From Acidovorax sp. (GTDB taxonomy: Bacteria > Pseudomonadota > Gammaproteobacteria > Burkholderiales > Burkholderiaceae_C): 52,479 nt of DNA. The notes under the pieces were generated by a model. It was not told the origin of the DNA and ran no database searches. It saw only the letters and a list, made by a program, of their open reading frames with translations. Both the position numbers and the translations under genes were made by a program. This document shows, piece by piece, positions 10,455 through 40,443 of the stretch. Position 1 is the stretch's first letter, and each line of letters starts with the position of its first letter. Location of the stretch: the NCBI GenBank assembly GCA_024711405.1, contig JANJSZ010000143.1:1-52479 (forward strand). Reading direction: 5' to 3'.

Positions 10455-12350
10455 ATGCACCTGCACATCTCGCTTGTATCGCCCCGCCGTCCGCTGGCCC
10501 TGGCCCTGATGGGCGCGCTCTCCCTGGGCCTGGTGGCCTGTGGCGGCAGCGACGATGGCCCCAGCTTCAAGGCCATCGAGCTGAACATTGCCCACATCAA
10601 CGACCACCACTCGCAGCTCGACGCGTTTGCCGCCACCGAACTCACCCTCGACGGCGTGGCCACGCAGGTGGAGCTGGGTGGCTTTGCGCGCCAGACGGCG
10701 CTGTTCAAGTCGCTGGCCGGCACGCCCAACCTGCTCAAGCTGCACGCGGGCGATGCCATCACGGGCTCGCTGTACTACACCTTCTTCAAGGGCAAGGCCG
10801 ATGCGCAGATGATGAACAGCATCTGCTTTGACGCCTTCATTCCGGGCAACCACGAGTTTGACGACGGCGACAGCGTCTTCAAGGGGTTTCTGGATGCACT
10901 GGCCGACCCGGCCAACGGCGGCAACTGCAAGACGCCCACGCTGTCGGCCAACATCGTGCCGCAGACCGGCACGCCCCTGGCTCCGGCGGGCGCCCCTACC
11001 TACCTGCAGCCCTACACCATCAAGAAGATCGATGGCGTGGACGTCGGCATCGTGGGCCTGACCATTGCCGGCAAGACAACCACTTCGTCGCGCCCGCTGG
11101 CCACCACCCAGTTCCTGGATGAAGCCGCCTCGGCGCAAAAGGCGATCGACGAACTCAAGGGGAAGGGCGTGCGCCACATCGTGCTGGTGTCGCACCTGGG
11201 CTACGACAACGACAAGCAGATCGCCACCAAACTGACCGACGTGGACGTGGTCATCGGGGGCGATTCGCACACCCTGCTGGGCGACTTCAAGGCCGTGGGG
11301 GTTGCGTCCGCCACCGGCACCTACCCGACGGTGGTGACCAACAAATCGGGCGAGACGGTGTGTATCGGCCAGGCCTGGGAATACGCCAAGGCCTACGGCC
11401 ACATGAACGTAAAGTTCAACGACAAGGGCAGCGTCGCCAGCTGCGGCGGCAAGACCCAGCTGGTGATTGGCGACCGCTTCAAGCGCAAGGACAGCACCGG
11501 CACCTGGCAACCGCTGGCCGATGCCGATCGCGCCGCGCTGGTCAGCAAGCTGGCGTCCAGCGCCAACGTGAAGGTCGTGACGCCCGACGCCACAGCGACG
11601 CAGACGCTGTCCGTCTACACATCCCAGGTCACGGCGCAGAAGGCCATCACCATCGGCACGGCCAGCGAAGCCCTGTGCCTGATGCGCGTGCCCGGTGGCT
11701 CCAACAGCCGCAACACGGGCGTGGCGGGCTGTGAAACCGCCAACACCCTGGCCCGTGGCAGCGATGCCGCCCAGGTGGTGTCAGAGGCCTTCCTGCGCGC
11801 CAGCAAGCGCGCTGACTTTGCACTGCAAAACGCCGGTGGTGTGCGCACCCCGATTGCCGCCGGCACACTGAGCATGAACACGGCCTTCACCCTGCTGCCG
11901 TTCACCAACGTGCTGGTCGAGATGGACCTCAAGGGCTCCGAAGTGATGGCCGCCCTGGAAGACGGCGTGGCCGCCCATCTGGACGCCACCGTGCCCTCGG
12001 ACGGCGCGCACCCCTACGCCGCCGGCCTGCGCTGGGACCTGGACATGAGCAAGACCAAGGGCCAACGCTTCAGCAACGTGCAGGTGCGCAGCAAGACCAC
12101 GGGTGCCTGGACCGCCATCGACCCCGCCAAGACCTATGTGCTGGTGACCAACGACTTCGTGGCCGCAGGCGGTGACGGCTACGCCACGCTCAAGCCCATC
12201 TACGCCGCAGGCCGTTATGTCAATACCTACCTGCTCTATACGCAGAGCTTTGTGGACTATGTGATCGCCCAGGGCACCATCGCCCGCCCCCAGGCGGCTG
12301 ACTACTCGCACCAGAAGGTCTTCACCAAGGCGGGCGTGGCGCTGCCCTGA
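10455..12350 (+). CDS. Bifunctional metallophosphatase/5'-nucleotidase family lipoprotein
   Basis: Lipobox LGLVACGGSDD; metallophosphoesterase motifs NIAHINDHHSQ, GDAITGSLYY, GNHEFDDG; C-terminal nucleotidase domain VTNDFVAAGGDGYATL. Confidence 0.87.
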   Translation: MHLHISLVSPRRPLALALMGALSLGLVACGGSDDGPSFKAIELNIAHINDHHSQLDAFAATELTLDGVATQVELGGFARQTALFKSLAGTPNLLKLHAGDAITGSLYYTFFKGKADAQMMNSICFDAFIPGNHEFDDGDSVFKGFLDALADPANGGNCKTPTLSANIVPQTGTPLAPAGAPTYLQPYTIKKIDGVDVGIVGLTIAGKTTTSSRPLATTQFLDEAASAQKAIDELKGKGVRHIVLVSHLGYDNDKQIATKLTDVDVVIGGDSHTLLGDFKAVGVASATGTYPTVVTNKSGETVCIGQAWEYAKAYGHMNVKFNDKGSVASCGGKTQLVIGDRFKRKDSTGTWQPLADADRAALVSKLASSANVKVVTPDATATQTLSVYTSQVTAQKAITIGTASEALCLMRVPGGSNSRNTGVAGCETANTLARGSDAAQVVSEAFLRASKRADFALQNAGGVRTPIAAGTLSMNTAFTLLPFTNVLVEMDLKGSEVMAALEDGVAAHLDATVPSDGAHPYAAGLRWDLDMSKTKGQRFSNVQVRSKTTGAWTAIDPAKTYVLVTNDFVAAGGDGYATLKPIYAAGRYVNTYLLYTQSFVDYVIAQGTIARPQAADYSHQKVFTKAGVALP

Positions 12351-34225: not shown

Positions 34226-35158
34226 TCACCCATGCGCCTGCACCAGGCATTGCGCAAACGCCTGCGCAGCGCGCGGTGGCTGGGGCGACTTGCGCAGCAC
34301 GCTGACAAACTGGCAGCGGTAGAAAAACTGCGCGGGCTGCACGGCCTGCATCAGGCCCTGGCGCACGAAGGCTTCGGCGTAGTGGTCGGGCAGAAAGCCC
34401 AGATAGCGGCCCGAGAGGATCAGCGTGGCGATCGACTCCTGGTCAAACCCCGTGGCCTTGCGCGGCAGGTGTGCGCGGTGGCTCAGCTCCATGTTGGGCG
34501 AGTGGTAGCCCAGGCCGGCAAACTGGTGGGTGCGCAAGGCGTCCCAGGTCAGGGCCGCGTGGTCGGCCCCGAACAGCGGGTGGCGCGCGCCGCAGTACAG
34601 CAGCATGGTCTCGGTGAACAGGTTGGCATACACCAGGCTTTGCGAGGCGCGGTGCGCCGGGATGATGCCGATATGCAGGCTGCCGTCGATCAGCCCCCGC
34701 TCGATGGCATTGATCGAGGCCACATGCATCTGCAGGCTCACGTCCGGTGCCTGTTCGGAGAACAGCGCAATCGCGTCGCCGATGTGCGCCGCCGGGTTGC
34801 TGGCGGTCTTGTCGAATACCGCCACCTCCAGGCGCCCGCCCATGCGGCGGTGGATGTCGTCGATGCTGCTGCGAAACGCGTCCACGGCGCTCAGCAACCG
34901 CAGGGTTTCGTCGTACACGCGCTGGCCCTCGGGCGTGAGGGCAAAGCCCGCCCGCCCGCGCCGGCACAGCGTGAGGCCCAGGCGCGTCTCCAGGTCTTTC
35001 ATGTGGCGGCTCACGGTGCTGGTGCCGATGTTCAGCTCCAGCTCGGCCGCCGACATGCCGCCGCACTCGGCCACGCTCTTGAACACCTGCAGCAGGCGCA
35101 GGTCCATGTCGCTGAGCTGGCCCAGCACGGCACGTTCACGGGGGGAAGGGGCGGGCAT
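34226..35158 (-). CDS. LysR family transcriptional regulator
   Basis: LSDMDLRLLQVFKSVAECGGMSAAELELNIGTSTVSRHMKDLETRLGLTLCRRGRAGFALT. Confidence 0.9.
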   Translation of the reverse strand: MPAPSPRERAVLGQLSDMDLRLLQVFKSVAECGGMSAAELELNIGTSTVSRHMKDLETRLGLTLCRRGRAGFALTPEGQRVYDETLRLLSAVDAFRSSIDDIHRRMGGRLEVAVFDKTASNPAAHIGDAIALFSEQAPDVSLQMHVASINAIERGLIDGSLHIGIIPAHRASQSLVYANLFTETMLLYCGARHPLFGADHAALTWDALRTHQFAGLGYHSPNMELSHRAHLPRKATGFDQESIATLILSGRYLGFLPDHYAEAFVRQGLMQAVQPAQFFYRCQFVSVLRKSPQPPRAAQAFAQCLVQAHG

Positions 35159-35453
35159 TGCGGTGATACGGGCAAGGGAAAAACAGCCCCCAAGACTACC
35201 AGCCCGATCGCCGGTGCCGGCGCGAACGCAATAGCCTAAAAAAGCTATACCGCCACCCCAAAGCGGTACTTGTGCAGGAAAAACCGGCTGCTTACGATGA
35301 TTTCGCAGGCTGGATCAACAGGAGTCTGTGCTGGTCAAAAGTGGTCATGACAGCGCAGCAAACCTGTTGGAGTTGCGGCAATGGTGCATGCAGTGCACCG
35401 CTGGTGCGTCCCGCGTGCGTATTTTCGCCAAGATTCACACATTACGACTTCCT

Positions 35454-37670
35454 ATGAAGAATCCCCTTCGCCATCCCTCTGCATTCGTTCGCCGCGCGGT
35501 TCTATTCGGAGCACTGGCGGGAATATTCGTGACCGCCTCGCCTGTCATCGGGCAAGCCATCGAAGCGACGACGAGTGCACCGTCCAAACATGCCATGGAG
35601 CCGCAGGTCATTGATGACCTGCCCGCCAACTACGCAGCCGATCTGCCCCCTGAGCAGCGCAGCCTGATTGAGCGTGGACGCTACATCGCCCGTCTGGGCG
35701 ACTGCGTAGCCTGCCACACGGGCGAAAAGTCCCAGCCCATGGCCGGCGGCCTCGCGCTGGAGACACCGTTCGGCAAGCTTTACTCCACCAATATCACGCC
35801 GGACAAGACCACCGGCATGGGCAGCTACAGCTTCGATCAGTTCGATCGCGCCATGCGCAAGGGCGTGGCAGCCGACGGTCGTAACCTGTATCCGGCCATG
35901 CCCTACCCGTCGTATGCCAAGATGTCCACTGAAGACATGCAGGCACTGTATGCGTATCTGATGGAAGGTGTGGCACCGGTGCAAGCGCCGAACAAGGCGT
36001 TGGAAATGGGCTTCCCTTTCAACCAGCGCTGGGGGCTTTCACTGTGGAACTGGCTGTTTCTGGACGCTACGCCGTTCCAGTCCAGCGCCCAGCAAACACC
36101 AGAGTGGAATCGCGGGGCCTACCTGGTACAGGGTCTGGGCCACTGCGGGGCGTGCCACACGCCGCGCGGCGTGGCTTTCCAGGAGAAGGCCATGACCGGC
36201 GAGGGCAAGAGCGGCACCTACTTCCTGGCCGGCGAGACGGTGGAAGGCTGGCGTGCCCTGAGTCTGCGCGACCTGTGGACGCCCAAGGAAACCGCCGAGA
36301 TGCTCAAAACCGGCCGCAACCGCCACGGCACGGTCTCGGGAAACATGGTGGACGTGGTGCAGCACAGCACGCAGTACATGAGCGATTCCGACCTGCTGGC
36401 CATCGGCACCTACCTCAAGTCCCTGCCCGCCGGCAAGGATGACCTGCCCATGCAGGTGGCCCAGGGGCCGGCGCCGCGCATCGCGATTCCGGCGCGCGCC
36501 GTTGGCAGCACTGAAGCCAATGCCGTCAACGCCGCGCACTACAACGTGCCGGCCGACCTCTACACCAGCCGCGGCGGCTTGGGATATCTGCAGTTCTGTG
36601 CGGACTGCCACCGTGCCGATGGCGGCGGCGTCAAGGACGTTTTCCCCTCGCTGGAGGGCAATCGCTCGCTGCGCGCGGACAATCCCAGCACGCTCATCCA
36701 CATCATGCTGACCGGCTGGACTACGCCGGTGACCCAGAGCCACGCACGGCCGCTGACCATGCCGGCTTTCGCCCAGCTGGGCGACCAGGAGATTGCTGAC
36801 ATCCTGAACTTCACCCGCCGCAACTGGGGCAGCAAGGATGCGTCGGAGATCAAGGCCGGGGATATTTCCAGCCAGCGCAAGCAGCTCCATGCATCGCCCG
36901 ACACTTCGCGTCCCTTCGAGACCCCTCGCCTGGCCGCCATGCTGGCCGAGCCCAACGCCAAGCAACTGGTCTATGGCGCGCGCCTGAACATCGAAACACG
37001 CGATCTGCTGCCCAAGAACGTGGGCAATGCGCTGAACTGCGCCAGCTGCCACCTGAATGCCGGCACTGTGGCCGATGGCTCACCCTATATCGGCATCTCG
37101 GCTTTCTTCCCTAGTTACGCGCCGCGCGCCGGCCGCACCATCACGCTGGAAGACCGCATCAACGGCTGTTTCCTGCGCTCAATGAACGGCAAACCGCTGC
37201 CGCTGGACTCGGAGGAGCTCAAGGCCATGGTGGCGCTGTTCGACTGGATGCGTCGCGAGACCAAGCCCGAGGACAAGGTCGAGGGTCGGGGCGTGGGCAA
37301 GGTCAGCCAGAGCATCATCCCCAACACCGAGAACGGCAAGAAAATCTACCAGGCCCAATGCGCACAATGCCACGGCACGGACGGCGAAGGCATCAAGAAC
37401 GCCAAGGGCCAGTGGGTCTATCCGCCGCTATGGGGTGACGAGTCCTTCAACATCGGCGCCGGCATGGCCCGCACCTACACGGCAGCCGCCTTCGTCAAGC
37501 GCAACATGCCGATCGCGATGCACAACAAGTTTCCGCTGGGCCAGGGCGGCTTGACAGACCAGGAGGCGGTGGACGTTGCCGAGTACTTCAGCCACCAGCC
37601 GCGCCCGGACTTCGCCGACAAGGTCAAGGACTGGCCGAATGGTAAAAAACCTGCGGATGCCAGGTACTGA
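35454..37670 (+). CDS. Pentaheme c-type cytochrome: triheme dehydrogenase-type cytochrome fused to TsdA-like diheme (thiosulfate dehydrogenase-like) domain
   Basis: Signal peptide; five CxxCH: CVACH (35703), CGACH (36144), CADCH (36597), CASCH (37038), CAQCH (37359); TsdA-like LPKNVGNALNCASCHLNAG...FPSYAPRAGRTITLEDRINGCFLRSMNGKPL. Confidence 0.85.
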   Translation: MKNPLRHPSAFVRRAVLFGALAGIFVTASPVIGQAIEATTSAPSKHAMEPQVIDDLPANYAADLPPEQRSLIERGRYIARLGDCVACHTGEKSQPMAGGLALETPFGKLYSTNITPDKTTGMGSYSFDQFDRAMRKGVAADGRNLYPAMPYPSYAKMSTEDMQALYAYLMEGVAPVQAPNKALEMGFPFNQRWGLSLWNWLFLDATPFQSSAQQTPEWNRGAYLVQGLGHCGACHTPRGVAFQEKAMTGEGKSGTYFLAGETVEGWRALSLRDLWTPKETAEMLKTGRNRHGTVSGNMVDVVQHSTQYMSDSDLLAIGTYLKSLPAGKDDLPMQVAQGPAPRIAIPARAVGSTEANAVNAAHYNVPADLYTSRGGLGYLQFCADCHRADGGGVKDVFPSLEGNRSLRADNPSTLIHIMLTGWTTPVTQSHARPLTMPAFAQLGDQEIADILNFTRRNWGSKDASEIKAGDISSQRKQLHASPDTSRPFETPRLAAMLAEPNAKQLVYGARLNIETRDLLPKNVGNALNCASCHLNAGTVADGSPYIGISAFFPSYAPRAGRTITLEDRINGCFLRSMNGKPLPLDSEELKAMVALFDWMRRETKPEDKVEGRGVGKVSQSIIPNTENGKKIYQAQCAQCHGTDGEGIKNAKGQWVYPPLWGDESFNIGAGMARTYTAAAFVKRNMPIAMHNKFPLGQGGLTDQEAVDVAEYFSHQPRPDFADKVKDWPNGKKPADARY

Positions 37671-37946: not shown

Positions 37947-38582
37947 TCAGCCGGCTTCCAGGCTCTCCGGGTCGGCGCGCAGGATCAGGCGGGCCAGGTC
38001 GGCGGCATGGCCGCTGCCGGTCTTCTCGGTGATACGCTGGCGGTGCACATGCACAGTGTGGTCGCTGATGCTCAGTTGCCGCGCCACTTCCTTGTTGCTC
38101 AGGCCGAGGGCCAGCAGGCGCGCCACGTCGCGCTCGCGCGGCGACAGGCGCCCGAGCTGCTCCTGCGCGGCGGCGCGCAGCCCCTGCTGGCGCTGCGCCG
38201 CCAGGTTCACACCCACGGCGTAGTTGAGGGCATCGAGCAGCGCCTGCTCGCGAAAGGGCTTTTGCAGAAAATCGATGGCGCCCGCGCGCATGGCCTGCAC
38301 GGCCTGGTCGATGTCGCCGTGGCCGGTCATGAACACGATGGGATAGGCGCGCCCCAGGTCGGCCAGGCGCCGCTGCAGCTCCAGCCCGCTCATGCGCGGC
38401 ATGCGGATGTCCAGCAGCAGGCAGCAGCCCTGGGGCGCGGGCGCTGGATCGGCATCCAGAAAATCCTGCGCCTGTGCGTAGCCCACGGGTGCAAAGCCCA
38501 ACCCTTCCACCATGAACAGGGTCGAGCGCAAAAAAGCGGGGTCGTCATCGACCACATGGATGATGGGAGCAGGTGCAGTCAT
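37947..38582 (-). CDS. FixJ/NarL-type response regulator (TtrR-like)
   Basis: [110 protein letters not shown] overlap with kinase. Confidence 0.88.
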
Positions 38583-40443
38583 GGCGTGGTTTCCTGGAGG
38601 GCCGGCAGCGCAGAGACCGCGGGCAAGGCCAGCGGCAGCAGCAATTCGAACACCATGCCGGGCTCGCCCGCCGCGCCGGCGGGGCGGGCCTGCAGCGCGC
38701 CGCCATGCGTTTCGGCAATGCCGCGGCAGATGGCCAGGCCCAGGCCCAAGCCGTCGGGGCGGGTGGTGTAGAAGGGTTCGAACAGCCGCGCACGCTCGGC
38801 ATCGCTCAGCGGGGCGCCCTGGTCTTGCACGGCAATGGCCAGGCGGTCGCCCTGGCATTCGATATGGATGGTGATGGGGGCATCCGCCCGGCCAGCGGCG
38901 CGGTGGGCGTCCAGCGCATTCTTCAGCAGATTCAGCAGCACCTGCTGAATCTGCTGCGGGTCACCCGGCACGCGCAGGCCCCGGCTACCGGGCGCGCCGT
39001 CGACGCGAATCGGCGGTGCCTGGCCCAGCAGGCCGCCAAACAGGGCCACGGCCTCGTTGGCCAGCGCCACCGGGCATTGAGCGCACGCACCGGCACGCGC
39101 TTGCGCGCCAGCGCGCGAATGCTCTCGATGACGCGCGTGGCGCGCTCGGCTTCCTGGCCGATGTCCAGCAATGCCAGGGCCAGCGCGTCGGGTGTGAGGT
39201 CGCCTCGCGTAGCCCGGCGCTGCACGCTGGCGGCGTAGTTGGCGATGGTGGCCAGCGGGTGGCTGAGCTCGTGCGCCAGCGTGGCCGACAGCTCCCCCAG
39301 GATGGACAGGCGCGCGAGGTGGTCCATGGCCTCCTGGCCCTGCGCAATCTGCTGCGCCAGGCGTTCACGCTCGCGCAGACTGCGCGAGAGCTCAAAGGTG
39401 CGGCGCTTGACCAGCACTTCCACATGCAGCATGTAGGCCGCGCCCAGCAGCAACAAGGCCAACATGCCGGCCAGCAAATACCAGTAGCGGCCCAACAGAG
39501 CCTGCGGGCGCGTCTCGCGCATGAACGCATAGGGCTCGGCCTGCAGCGCGCGCAGCACGTCATGCACGCGCTGGTAATCAGCGGGCACCGACCAGCGGCC
39601 GCCATGGGCGTCGGCGGGCAGGGCCAACAACGCCAGCAGCACGGTGCGGCCCAGCTCGGGCGGCGTGTAGGCCAGCGCGGCAAAAGCCCAGCCGGGGTAC
39701 AGCGGCGTGGACGATTGGCAGGCCGCCGGCGCATCGGGCCGCGCGCCCACCACCACCAGCGCGCCCGGGGCCACGCGCCCCGCGCGTTCGAGCTGCTCCA
39801 GCACGCAGGTGCGCAGGATGCCCGCGTCGGCCCGGCCCGCCAGCACCGCGTCGGCCACGCGCTGCATCGGAAAACCGGTGAACACCCGCTGCACCGCGCC
39901 CGCCTCGGCGTCCAGGCCGCTCTGCAACCATTCGTGCGCCACCAGCTGGTAGCCGCCAAACGCCTCTTCGGCCACCGCCGCCACGCGCTGCCCGCGCAGC
40001 GCCTCCAGCGTGGCGGGCAGCGGCGCACCGGCACGCACCACCACGGCCGAGCCCACGGTGTGCGCGGGGTCGTCGCTTTCGGCCGTGGTCTGGGTGGCGA
40101 TGCGCGTGGCGCCATGGCGTGCCTCCAGCCGCACATAGTGCCCCGGGTTGGTCACCACGAAGTCCAGAGCCTGCCGCGCCAGCGCCGCTTCCAGCGCCTG
40201 CGGGTCAAGCACCTGCAGCCGCACGCTGTGCCCCGGCAGGGCGCGCGCCAGCCCGTCGGCCAGCGGCTGCCACAGGCGCTGGGTCTCCTCGCCTTCGAGC
40301 ACGGCCAGCACGCCGATGCGGATGGGCGCGGTGGCCGCCGCGGGCGTCTGCCCGGCCCCCGCCAGCGGCGCAGCCAGCAGCCAGGCCGCCACCAGCCAGC
40401 GCCCTGCCGCGCCAGCGCATCGGAAGAAGGTGGGCTTGCGCAT
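38579..40443 (-). pseudogene. Sensor histidine kinase with periplasmic PhnD-like domain (TtrS-like), interrupted by an apparent 1-nt frameshift near 39071-39078
   Basis: Frame A: PIRIGVLAVLEGEETQRLWQPLADGLARALPGHSVRLQVLD...LDFVVTNPGHYVRLEARHGATRIATQ, TM, LSILGELSATLAHELSHPLATIANYA. Frame B (38579-39070): [19 protein letters not shown]...[28 protein letters not shown]. Confidence 0.82.

Follow-up and report, generated by a model that had tools for sequence, protein, structure and literature searches.

A five-heme cytochrome gene from Acidovorax that joins a triheme dehydrogenase-type cytochrome to a TsdA domain

Triheme cytochrome c subunits of the alcohol dehydrogenase (ADH) and fructose dehydrogenase (FDH) type act as electron acceptors of dehydrogenases, and the known ones go together with a flavin or PQQ subunit. 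TsdA proteins are thiosulfate dehydrogenases, enzymes that convert thiosulfate and tetrathionate into one another. Those of A. vinosum (AvTsdA; 4wq7/4v2k) and C. jejuni (CjTsdA) are stand-alone, exported proteins with two hemes, a Cys heme ligand and a Met ligand on heme 2. The roles of AvTsdA residues Arg109, Arg119, Cys123, Ser127 and Arg224 have been described, with Arg224 only partly conserved among the active-site residues of TsdA proteins (PMC4423706). C. jejuni TsdA functions as a tetrathionate reductase (PMC5146829). In M. purpuratum, the fusion protein TsdBA (5lo9) carries an N-terminal electron-partner cytochrome, the diheme domain TsdB, tethered to TsdA, and this protein is catalogued as a thiosulfate dehydrogenase. 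Finally, the TtrRS system of V. parahaemolyticus directly activates tsdBA, whose product oxidises thiosulfate (PMC11293645).

The window examined here is a stretch of 52,479 nucleotides from an Acidovorax species, taken from a fragmented assembly that is 82% complete. It includes a gene for a 738 amino acid protein in which the CxxCH motif occurs exactly five times, at residues 84, 231, 382, 529 and 636 (Table 1); both the coordinates and the motif count agree with an original prediction made from the sequence of the window. The mechanically called ORF opens at a GTG codon at position 35328. However, the ATG codon listed in the table is likely the true start, because this codon and the bases just 5' of it are conserved in the three nearest homologues and the sequence farther upstream diverges. 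The hydropathy maximum of the protein (1.98) falls at residues 15-33. Simple hydropathy, which an amphipathic anchor would escape, shows no other segment resembling a transmembrane helix in the protein and none beyond the N-terminus in any of 57 homologues, including at the C-terminus, where a hydrophobic membrane region was looked for as in triheme dehydrogenase subunits. These features are best explained by a protein that is exported to the periplasm.

Table 1. Positions of the fused cytochrome gene, its parts and its neighbours in the window
Feature	Position	Strand	Basis
Divergent LysR-type regulator	34226..35158	-	PF00126/PF03466
Five-heme fused cytochrome gene, 738 aa plus stop	35454..37670	+	ORF, motif count, upstream comparison with two Acidovorax homologues
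N-terminal hydrophobic export signal (signal peptide or anchor), about residues 1-35	35454..35558	+	Hydropathy
Triheme cytochrome domain, residues 66-475, AdhB / FDH-III / glucose-dehydrogenase beta family	35649..36878	+	Sequence and fold matches
CxxCH 1 (CVACH)	35703..35717	+	Cys/His invariant
CxxCH 2 (CGACH)	36144..36158	+	Motif search and homologue alignment
CxxCH 3 (CADCH)	36597..36611	+	Motif search and homologue alignment
TsdA domain, residues 494-726	36933..37631	+	4wqc_A, PF21342, Foldseek 4wq7
CxxCH 4 (CASCH), predicted catalytic heme of TsdA domain	37038..37052	+	AvTsdA and homologue alignments
Arg558, equivalent of AvTsdA Arg109	37125..37127	+	Alignment; invariant
Arg568, Cys572 (predicted heme ligand/nucleophile) and Ser576, equivalents of AvTsdA Arg119, Cys123 and Ser127	37155..37181	+	Alignment; invariant
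CxxCH 5 (CAQCH), predicted electron-transfer heme of TsdA domain	37359..37373	+	AvTsdA and homologue alignments
K682-R-N684-M685, predicted heme-2 Met ligand region	37497..37508	+	Alignments; Asn replaces AvTsdA Lys208, as in C. jejuni
TtrR/FixJ-like response regulator, convergent with cytochrome gene	37947..38582	-	Response_reg and GerE
TtrS-like sensor kinase, PhnD-type periplasmic domain, HisKA and HATPase	38579..40443	-	PF12974, PF00512, PF02518

The first three CxxCH motifs had been predicted to have the layout of triheme dehydrogenase cytochromes. In keeping with this, the N-terminal half shows a whole-length family match to AdhB, the cytochrome subunit of G. oxydans alcohol dehydrogenase (8gy2_B, E=1.5e-97). 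The same region matches the corresponding chains of B. cepacia glucose dehydrogenase (8hdd_B) and of fructose dehydrogenase (7w2j_C), and a fold search with an AlphaFold2 model of the protein (57 sequences, mean pLDDT 71.7, pTM 0.73) also recovers 8gy2_B (E=3.5e-33). The three structures share with the N-terminal half the heme motifs, the Met positions, the sequence and the fold. Met149, Met298 and Met436 are invariant and aligned with AdhB, from which we infer that they serve as heme ligands. Unlike the dehydrogenase trihemes, the protein continues C-terminally into a TsdA domain, and no gene for a partner dehydrogenase accompanies it.

The assignment of the last two CxxCH motifs to a TsdA context is decisively supported by the match of the C-terminal half to A. 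vinosum TsdA (4wqc_A, chain 13-243, E=3e-50). This half also matches the Pfam family PF21342 (SoxA-TsdA_cyt-c), and Foldseek aligned the AlphaFold2 model with 4wq7 (TM 0.83) and with the TsdBA fusion 5lo9. The Cys residue in RINGCFLRSMNG, singled out in the original prediction, aligns with the heme-ligand Cys of AvTsdA in RIGDCFERSLNG, and is predicted to be the sixth ligand of the catalytic heme 4. The set of AvTsdA equivalents is completed by Arg673, which corresponds to Arg224 in the second domain, and by Met685, which corresponds to the Met ligand of heme 2. All of these residues (Arg558, Arg568, Cys572, Ser576, Arg673 and Met685) are invariant in 57 fused homologues. The residue preceding the Met is Asn684, at the position of AvTsdA Lys208 (mature numbering).

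Despite this conservation, the C-terminal half is only about 40% identical to characterised TsdA proteins. Perhaps the domain has been repurposed, either for another sulfur substrate such as organic thiosulfates, persulfides or sulfite, or for electron transfer only. The presence of the fused gene in many genomes that lack Sox genes would suit such a change. However, every residue shown to matter in AvTsdA is invariant, and the gene is recurrently linked to a sensor pair of the tetrathionate type (described below), so we regard a repurposed domain as unlikely.

Here the TsdA domain forms the C-terminal part of a larger protein and has no signal peptide of its own, which sets it apart from stand-alone TsdA. 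The order of the domains is that of TsdBA, with a partner cytochrome tethered in front of TsdA, but the partner is a triheme domain from another cytochrome family, and a sequence search aligned 5lo9 with the TsdA part only. Thus, the fused protein is best read as an analogue of TsdBA whose partner domain is unrelated to TsdB. Both halves belong to familiar kinds of protein; what appears to be new is their fusion. In the open-access literature searchable through PubMed Central, we found papers on TsdA, TsdB and TsdBA and none on a triheme-TsdA fusion, which therefore appears to be undescribed there.

There are 61 distinct fused sequences (56 from the set of loci compared, the one in the window and four from plasmid loci), and they are found in beta-, gamma- and alphaproteobacteria. 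They are 56-96% identical to the protein in the window. Carriers include Acidovorax, Comamonas, Delftia, Cupriavidus, Ralstonia, Herbaspirillum, Thauera, Burkholderia, Paraburkholderia, Pseudomonas, Rhodopseudomonas, Roseovarius, Thioclava and Rhizobium, and some copies reside on plasmids such as C. metallidurans pMOL30. Where an annotation is given, it reads 'c-type cytochrome' or 'cytochrome C'. Essentially all relatives whose TsdA half is 64-97% identical are fused and have five CxxCH motifs; the exceptions are fragments at contig edges (L037/L075 and L080) and one broken copy (L105). Unfused TsdA proteins are at most 55% identical over the C-terminal half. The fusion is thus a widespread orthologous family. 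The broken copy, from Paraburkholderia adhaesiva (L105:9959-10561), is split into several frames and represents either a degraded gene or a sequencing error.

The incomplete state of the source assembly and a broken frame in the nearby kinase gene raise the question of whether two genes were joined by an assembly or frameshift artefact. This explanation, to which we assign practically no weight, is ruled out by the many distinct full-length fused sequences, some of them from complete genomes and from plasmids such as pMOL30. On that heavy-metal plasmid the fused gene (L117:7842-10094) has an integrase gene on one side and a gene of the MerT type on the other, and the czc cluster is about 5 kb away, a setting that suggests lateral transfer.

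A search for split homologues, proposed with the original prediction, returned three adjacent-gene pairs. In L043, L044 and L120 (Paracoccus versutus pBEN), a triheme gene is located immediately upstream of a TsdA gene on the same strand, and the two overlap by four bases in Paracoccus versutus. The split halves match the same solved structures as the fused ones, as seen for the triheme half of L044 and the TsdA half of L120. In a tree of TsdA domains, the fused proteins fall into a single clade (99/98), the split set is sister to it, and the two together are supported at 100/99. The triheme tree likewise places the split pairs as sister to the fused sequences and sets both apart from the dehydrogenase-type trihemes (97), with weak support for monophyly of the fused set itself (36). 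The sister position of the split pairs fits a single fusion of a pre-existing, co-inherited two-gene operon. The root of the trees is not fixed, which leaves fission as a possible alternative to fusion.

These relationships also bear on whether the triheme domain still docks a separate flavin or PQQ dehydrogenase. The fusion could then be a hub that links the oxidation of organic compounds to tetrathionate reduction, or that shares a route of electron export. The triheme domain has retained its three CxxCH motifs and the aligned Met positions, and other parts of the genome encode three GMC oxidoreductases and one PQQ protein. However, the window's contig carries no match to GMC-flavin (PF00732) or PQQ (PF13360) dehydrogenases, the genome's matches all being on other contigs, which agrees with the lack of an adjacent partner noted in the original prediction, and the other genes at 31-43 kb are unrelated to such a partner. 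Nor do the loci compared share a dehydrogenase gene beside the fused gene or the split pair. In addition, the separation of the fused clade from dehydrogenase-type trihemes and the co-inheritance of the triheme domain with TsdA suggest specialisation. We consider docking of a dehydrogenase quite improbable, even a little more so than a repurposed TsdA domain.

Neighbouring genes in the homologous loci, called by codon usage, reveal no conserved partner operon. Apart from lineage-specific neighbours, the fused genes mostly stand alone. In five Herbaspirillum loci (L086:7830-8387, L088, L091, L093 and L094), a cytochrome b561 gene is located directly upstream on the same strand. Its product is a candidate membrane electron partner, which hints that the quinone pool is the acceptor. 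In Delftia (L065:10982-11734), a gene of the TauE/SafE-type sulfite exporter family is directly downstream and convergent.

A sensor kinase and a response regulator resembling TtrS and TtrR recur as neighbours. For the regulator in the window, the best models are FixJ (NF006900, 4.4e-53) and TtrR (NF040749, 2.6e-43), and for the kinase TtrS (NF040750, 1.1e-66), with all three matches below the respective cut-offs. This holds generally: every kinase scanned scores highest against TtrS, at 225-333 bits with an equivalog cut-off of 750, and TtrR is second to FixJ for the scanned regulators, at 148-153 bits against a cut-off of 290. The kinase gene in the window occupies two frames, with a break near 39070-39085 on the minus strand, and homologues align on either side of it (tblastn); the break is either a sequencing error or a real frameshift.

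At least eight genera have a similar pair, in either orientation, next to the fused gene or its split counterpart. They adjoin the gene in the window, three Thauera loci, Pelomonas, two more genomes of the window's family, Ideonella, Thioclava and Rhizobium, and in the last three the kinase and regulator are downstream of the cytochrome gene and on its strand. Such a pair also flanks the split genes of L044, and in A. delafieldii a response regulator adjoins the fused gene just before the contig ends. Most fused loci have no adjacent TtrSR-like pair. A TtrS-like kinase scoring above 200 bits over most of the model is encoded in 9 of the 17 genomes searched, one in each; five of these nine adjoin a fused or split gene, and a sixth is about 4 kb from a lone TsdA. 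This recurrent linkage independently supports tetrathionate or thiosulfate chemistry.

The arrangement resembles that in V. parahaemolyticus, where a TtrS/TtrR-type pair is likewise tied to TsdA with a cytochrome partner. The Acidovorax locus differs in that no ttrBCA genes lie beside the cytochrome gene, the sensors score below the TtrS and TtrR cut-offs, and the published TtrR box is missing upstream. Specifically, there is no exact match to GTGG-N4-CCAC upstream of the fused genes in the window or in the other loci tested. The promoter region (35159-35453) contains no exact or one-mismatch copy either, and such copies are somewhat commoner than expected elsewhere in the window (62 versus 43 from shuffled sequences).

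The divergent LysR gene of the window also adjoins the fused gene of the closest Acidovorax homologues, and its product is a possible second regulator. An imperfect inverted repeat (ATAGCC-N6-AGCTAT, 35231-35248) is located between the two genes and is largely kept in two Acidovorax homologues. This element could be a binding site for the LysR protein.

Taken as a whole, the original prediction stood, and came out stronger than first put, with regard to the domains, the Cys ligand and the lack of a dehydrogenase partner, but it missed the TtrSR-like neighbours, the split homologues and the breadth of the family. The domain identities, the complete set of catalytic residues, the conserved fusion, the split relatives and the TtrSR-like linkage make it highly probable that the protein carries out TsdA-type thiosulfate/tetrathionate chemistry, in one direction or the other, with a built-in triheme conduit. 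In the oxidative direction, thiosulfate would add to Cys572 on the Cys/His-ligated heme 4 to give a Cys-S-thiosulfonate, from which tetrathionate would be formed. Electrons would move from heme 4 to heme 5 (His/Met) and then into the covalently tethered triheme domain, which would stand in for TsdB and pass them to the respiratory chain by way of a small cytochrome c, b561 or quinone. The fused protein may in this manner be coupled to an electron-transfer chain. The reverse reaction, tetrathionate reduction, is chemically possible. Expression of the gene is probably switched on by the adjoining sensor pair when tetrathionate or thiosulfate is present.

The direction of the net reaction is a closer call. 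One possibility is that the enzyme is mainly a tetrathionate reductase, differing from the scheme above in direction only. The triheme domain would take up electrons from quinol or a cytochrome, and these would be used to reduce tetrathionate at TsdA as a form of terminal respiration. The K-x-N-M sequence at K682, N684 and M685 resembles that of the reduction-adapted C. jejuni TsdA, and the TtrSR-like sensors and the b561 gene of Herbaspirillum are both suggestive of such a role. Moreover, SoxB is missing from most of the carriers tested. However, the Asn before the heme-2 Met is also present in M. purpuratum TsdBA, and thus Asn684 is not decisive. The triheme relatives in ADH and FDH receive electrons from dehydrogenases, and the tsdBA product of V. 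parahaemolyticus oxidises thiosulfate under the control of TtrRS. On balance, we modestly favour net thiosulfate oxidation, and we hold a mainly reductive role to be somewhat less than an even prospect.

SoxB was found in 6 of 17 carrier genomes, which suggests that the fused enzyme does not depend on Sox. It was not found in the other 11, among them the window's own genome (82% complete), which leaves tetrathionate without an obvious downstream route there. A search of the same genome for SoxY gave no match, and the control likewise gave none. Within the window, a SoxB-family match of 68.6 bits (cut-off 550) at 10608-11300 on the plus strand lies in a 671 amino acid open frame, which probably encodes another 5'-nucleotidase/metallophosphatase-like protein.

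We see roughly even chances for a broader proposal, namely that the triheme family has been recruited to serve an enzyme of inorganic sulfur chemistry as its dedicated redox partner. The result would be a one-polypeptide thiosulfate:respiratory-chain (or quinol:tetrathionate) oxidoreductase that, controlled by TtrSR-like proteins, operates free of Sox in common heterotrophs (Delftia, Comamonas, Cupriavidus and Acidovorax, for example), and that would explain thiosulfate/tetrathionate turnover in bacteria lacking Sox. Though labelled simply 'c-type cytochrome' or 'cytochrome C', the fused genes point to a likely capacity for thiosulfate/tetrathionate chemistry in many bacteria, including the carriers without SoxB. 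Together with TsdBA, the fused and split versions form a natural series for testing how a tethered partner sets which way a bidirectional enzyme with a Cys-ligated heme runs.

Genes for DsbD-like and DsbA-like proteins, identified by reading the sequences only, are located near the split pair of Paracoccus versutus (L120:4080-12105), and two Rhizobiales MAGs (L083:6428-9741 and L096) carry similar genes 3' of their fused gene. They possibly encode a periplasmic thiol-reduction system that serves the Cys-ligated heme.
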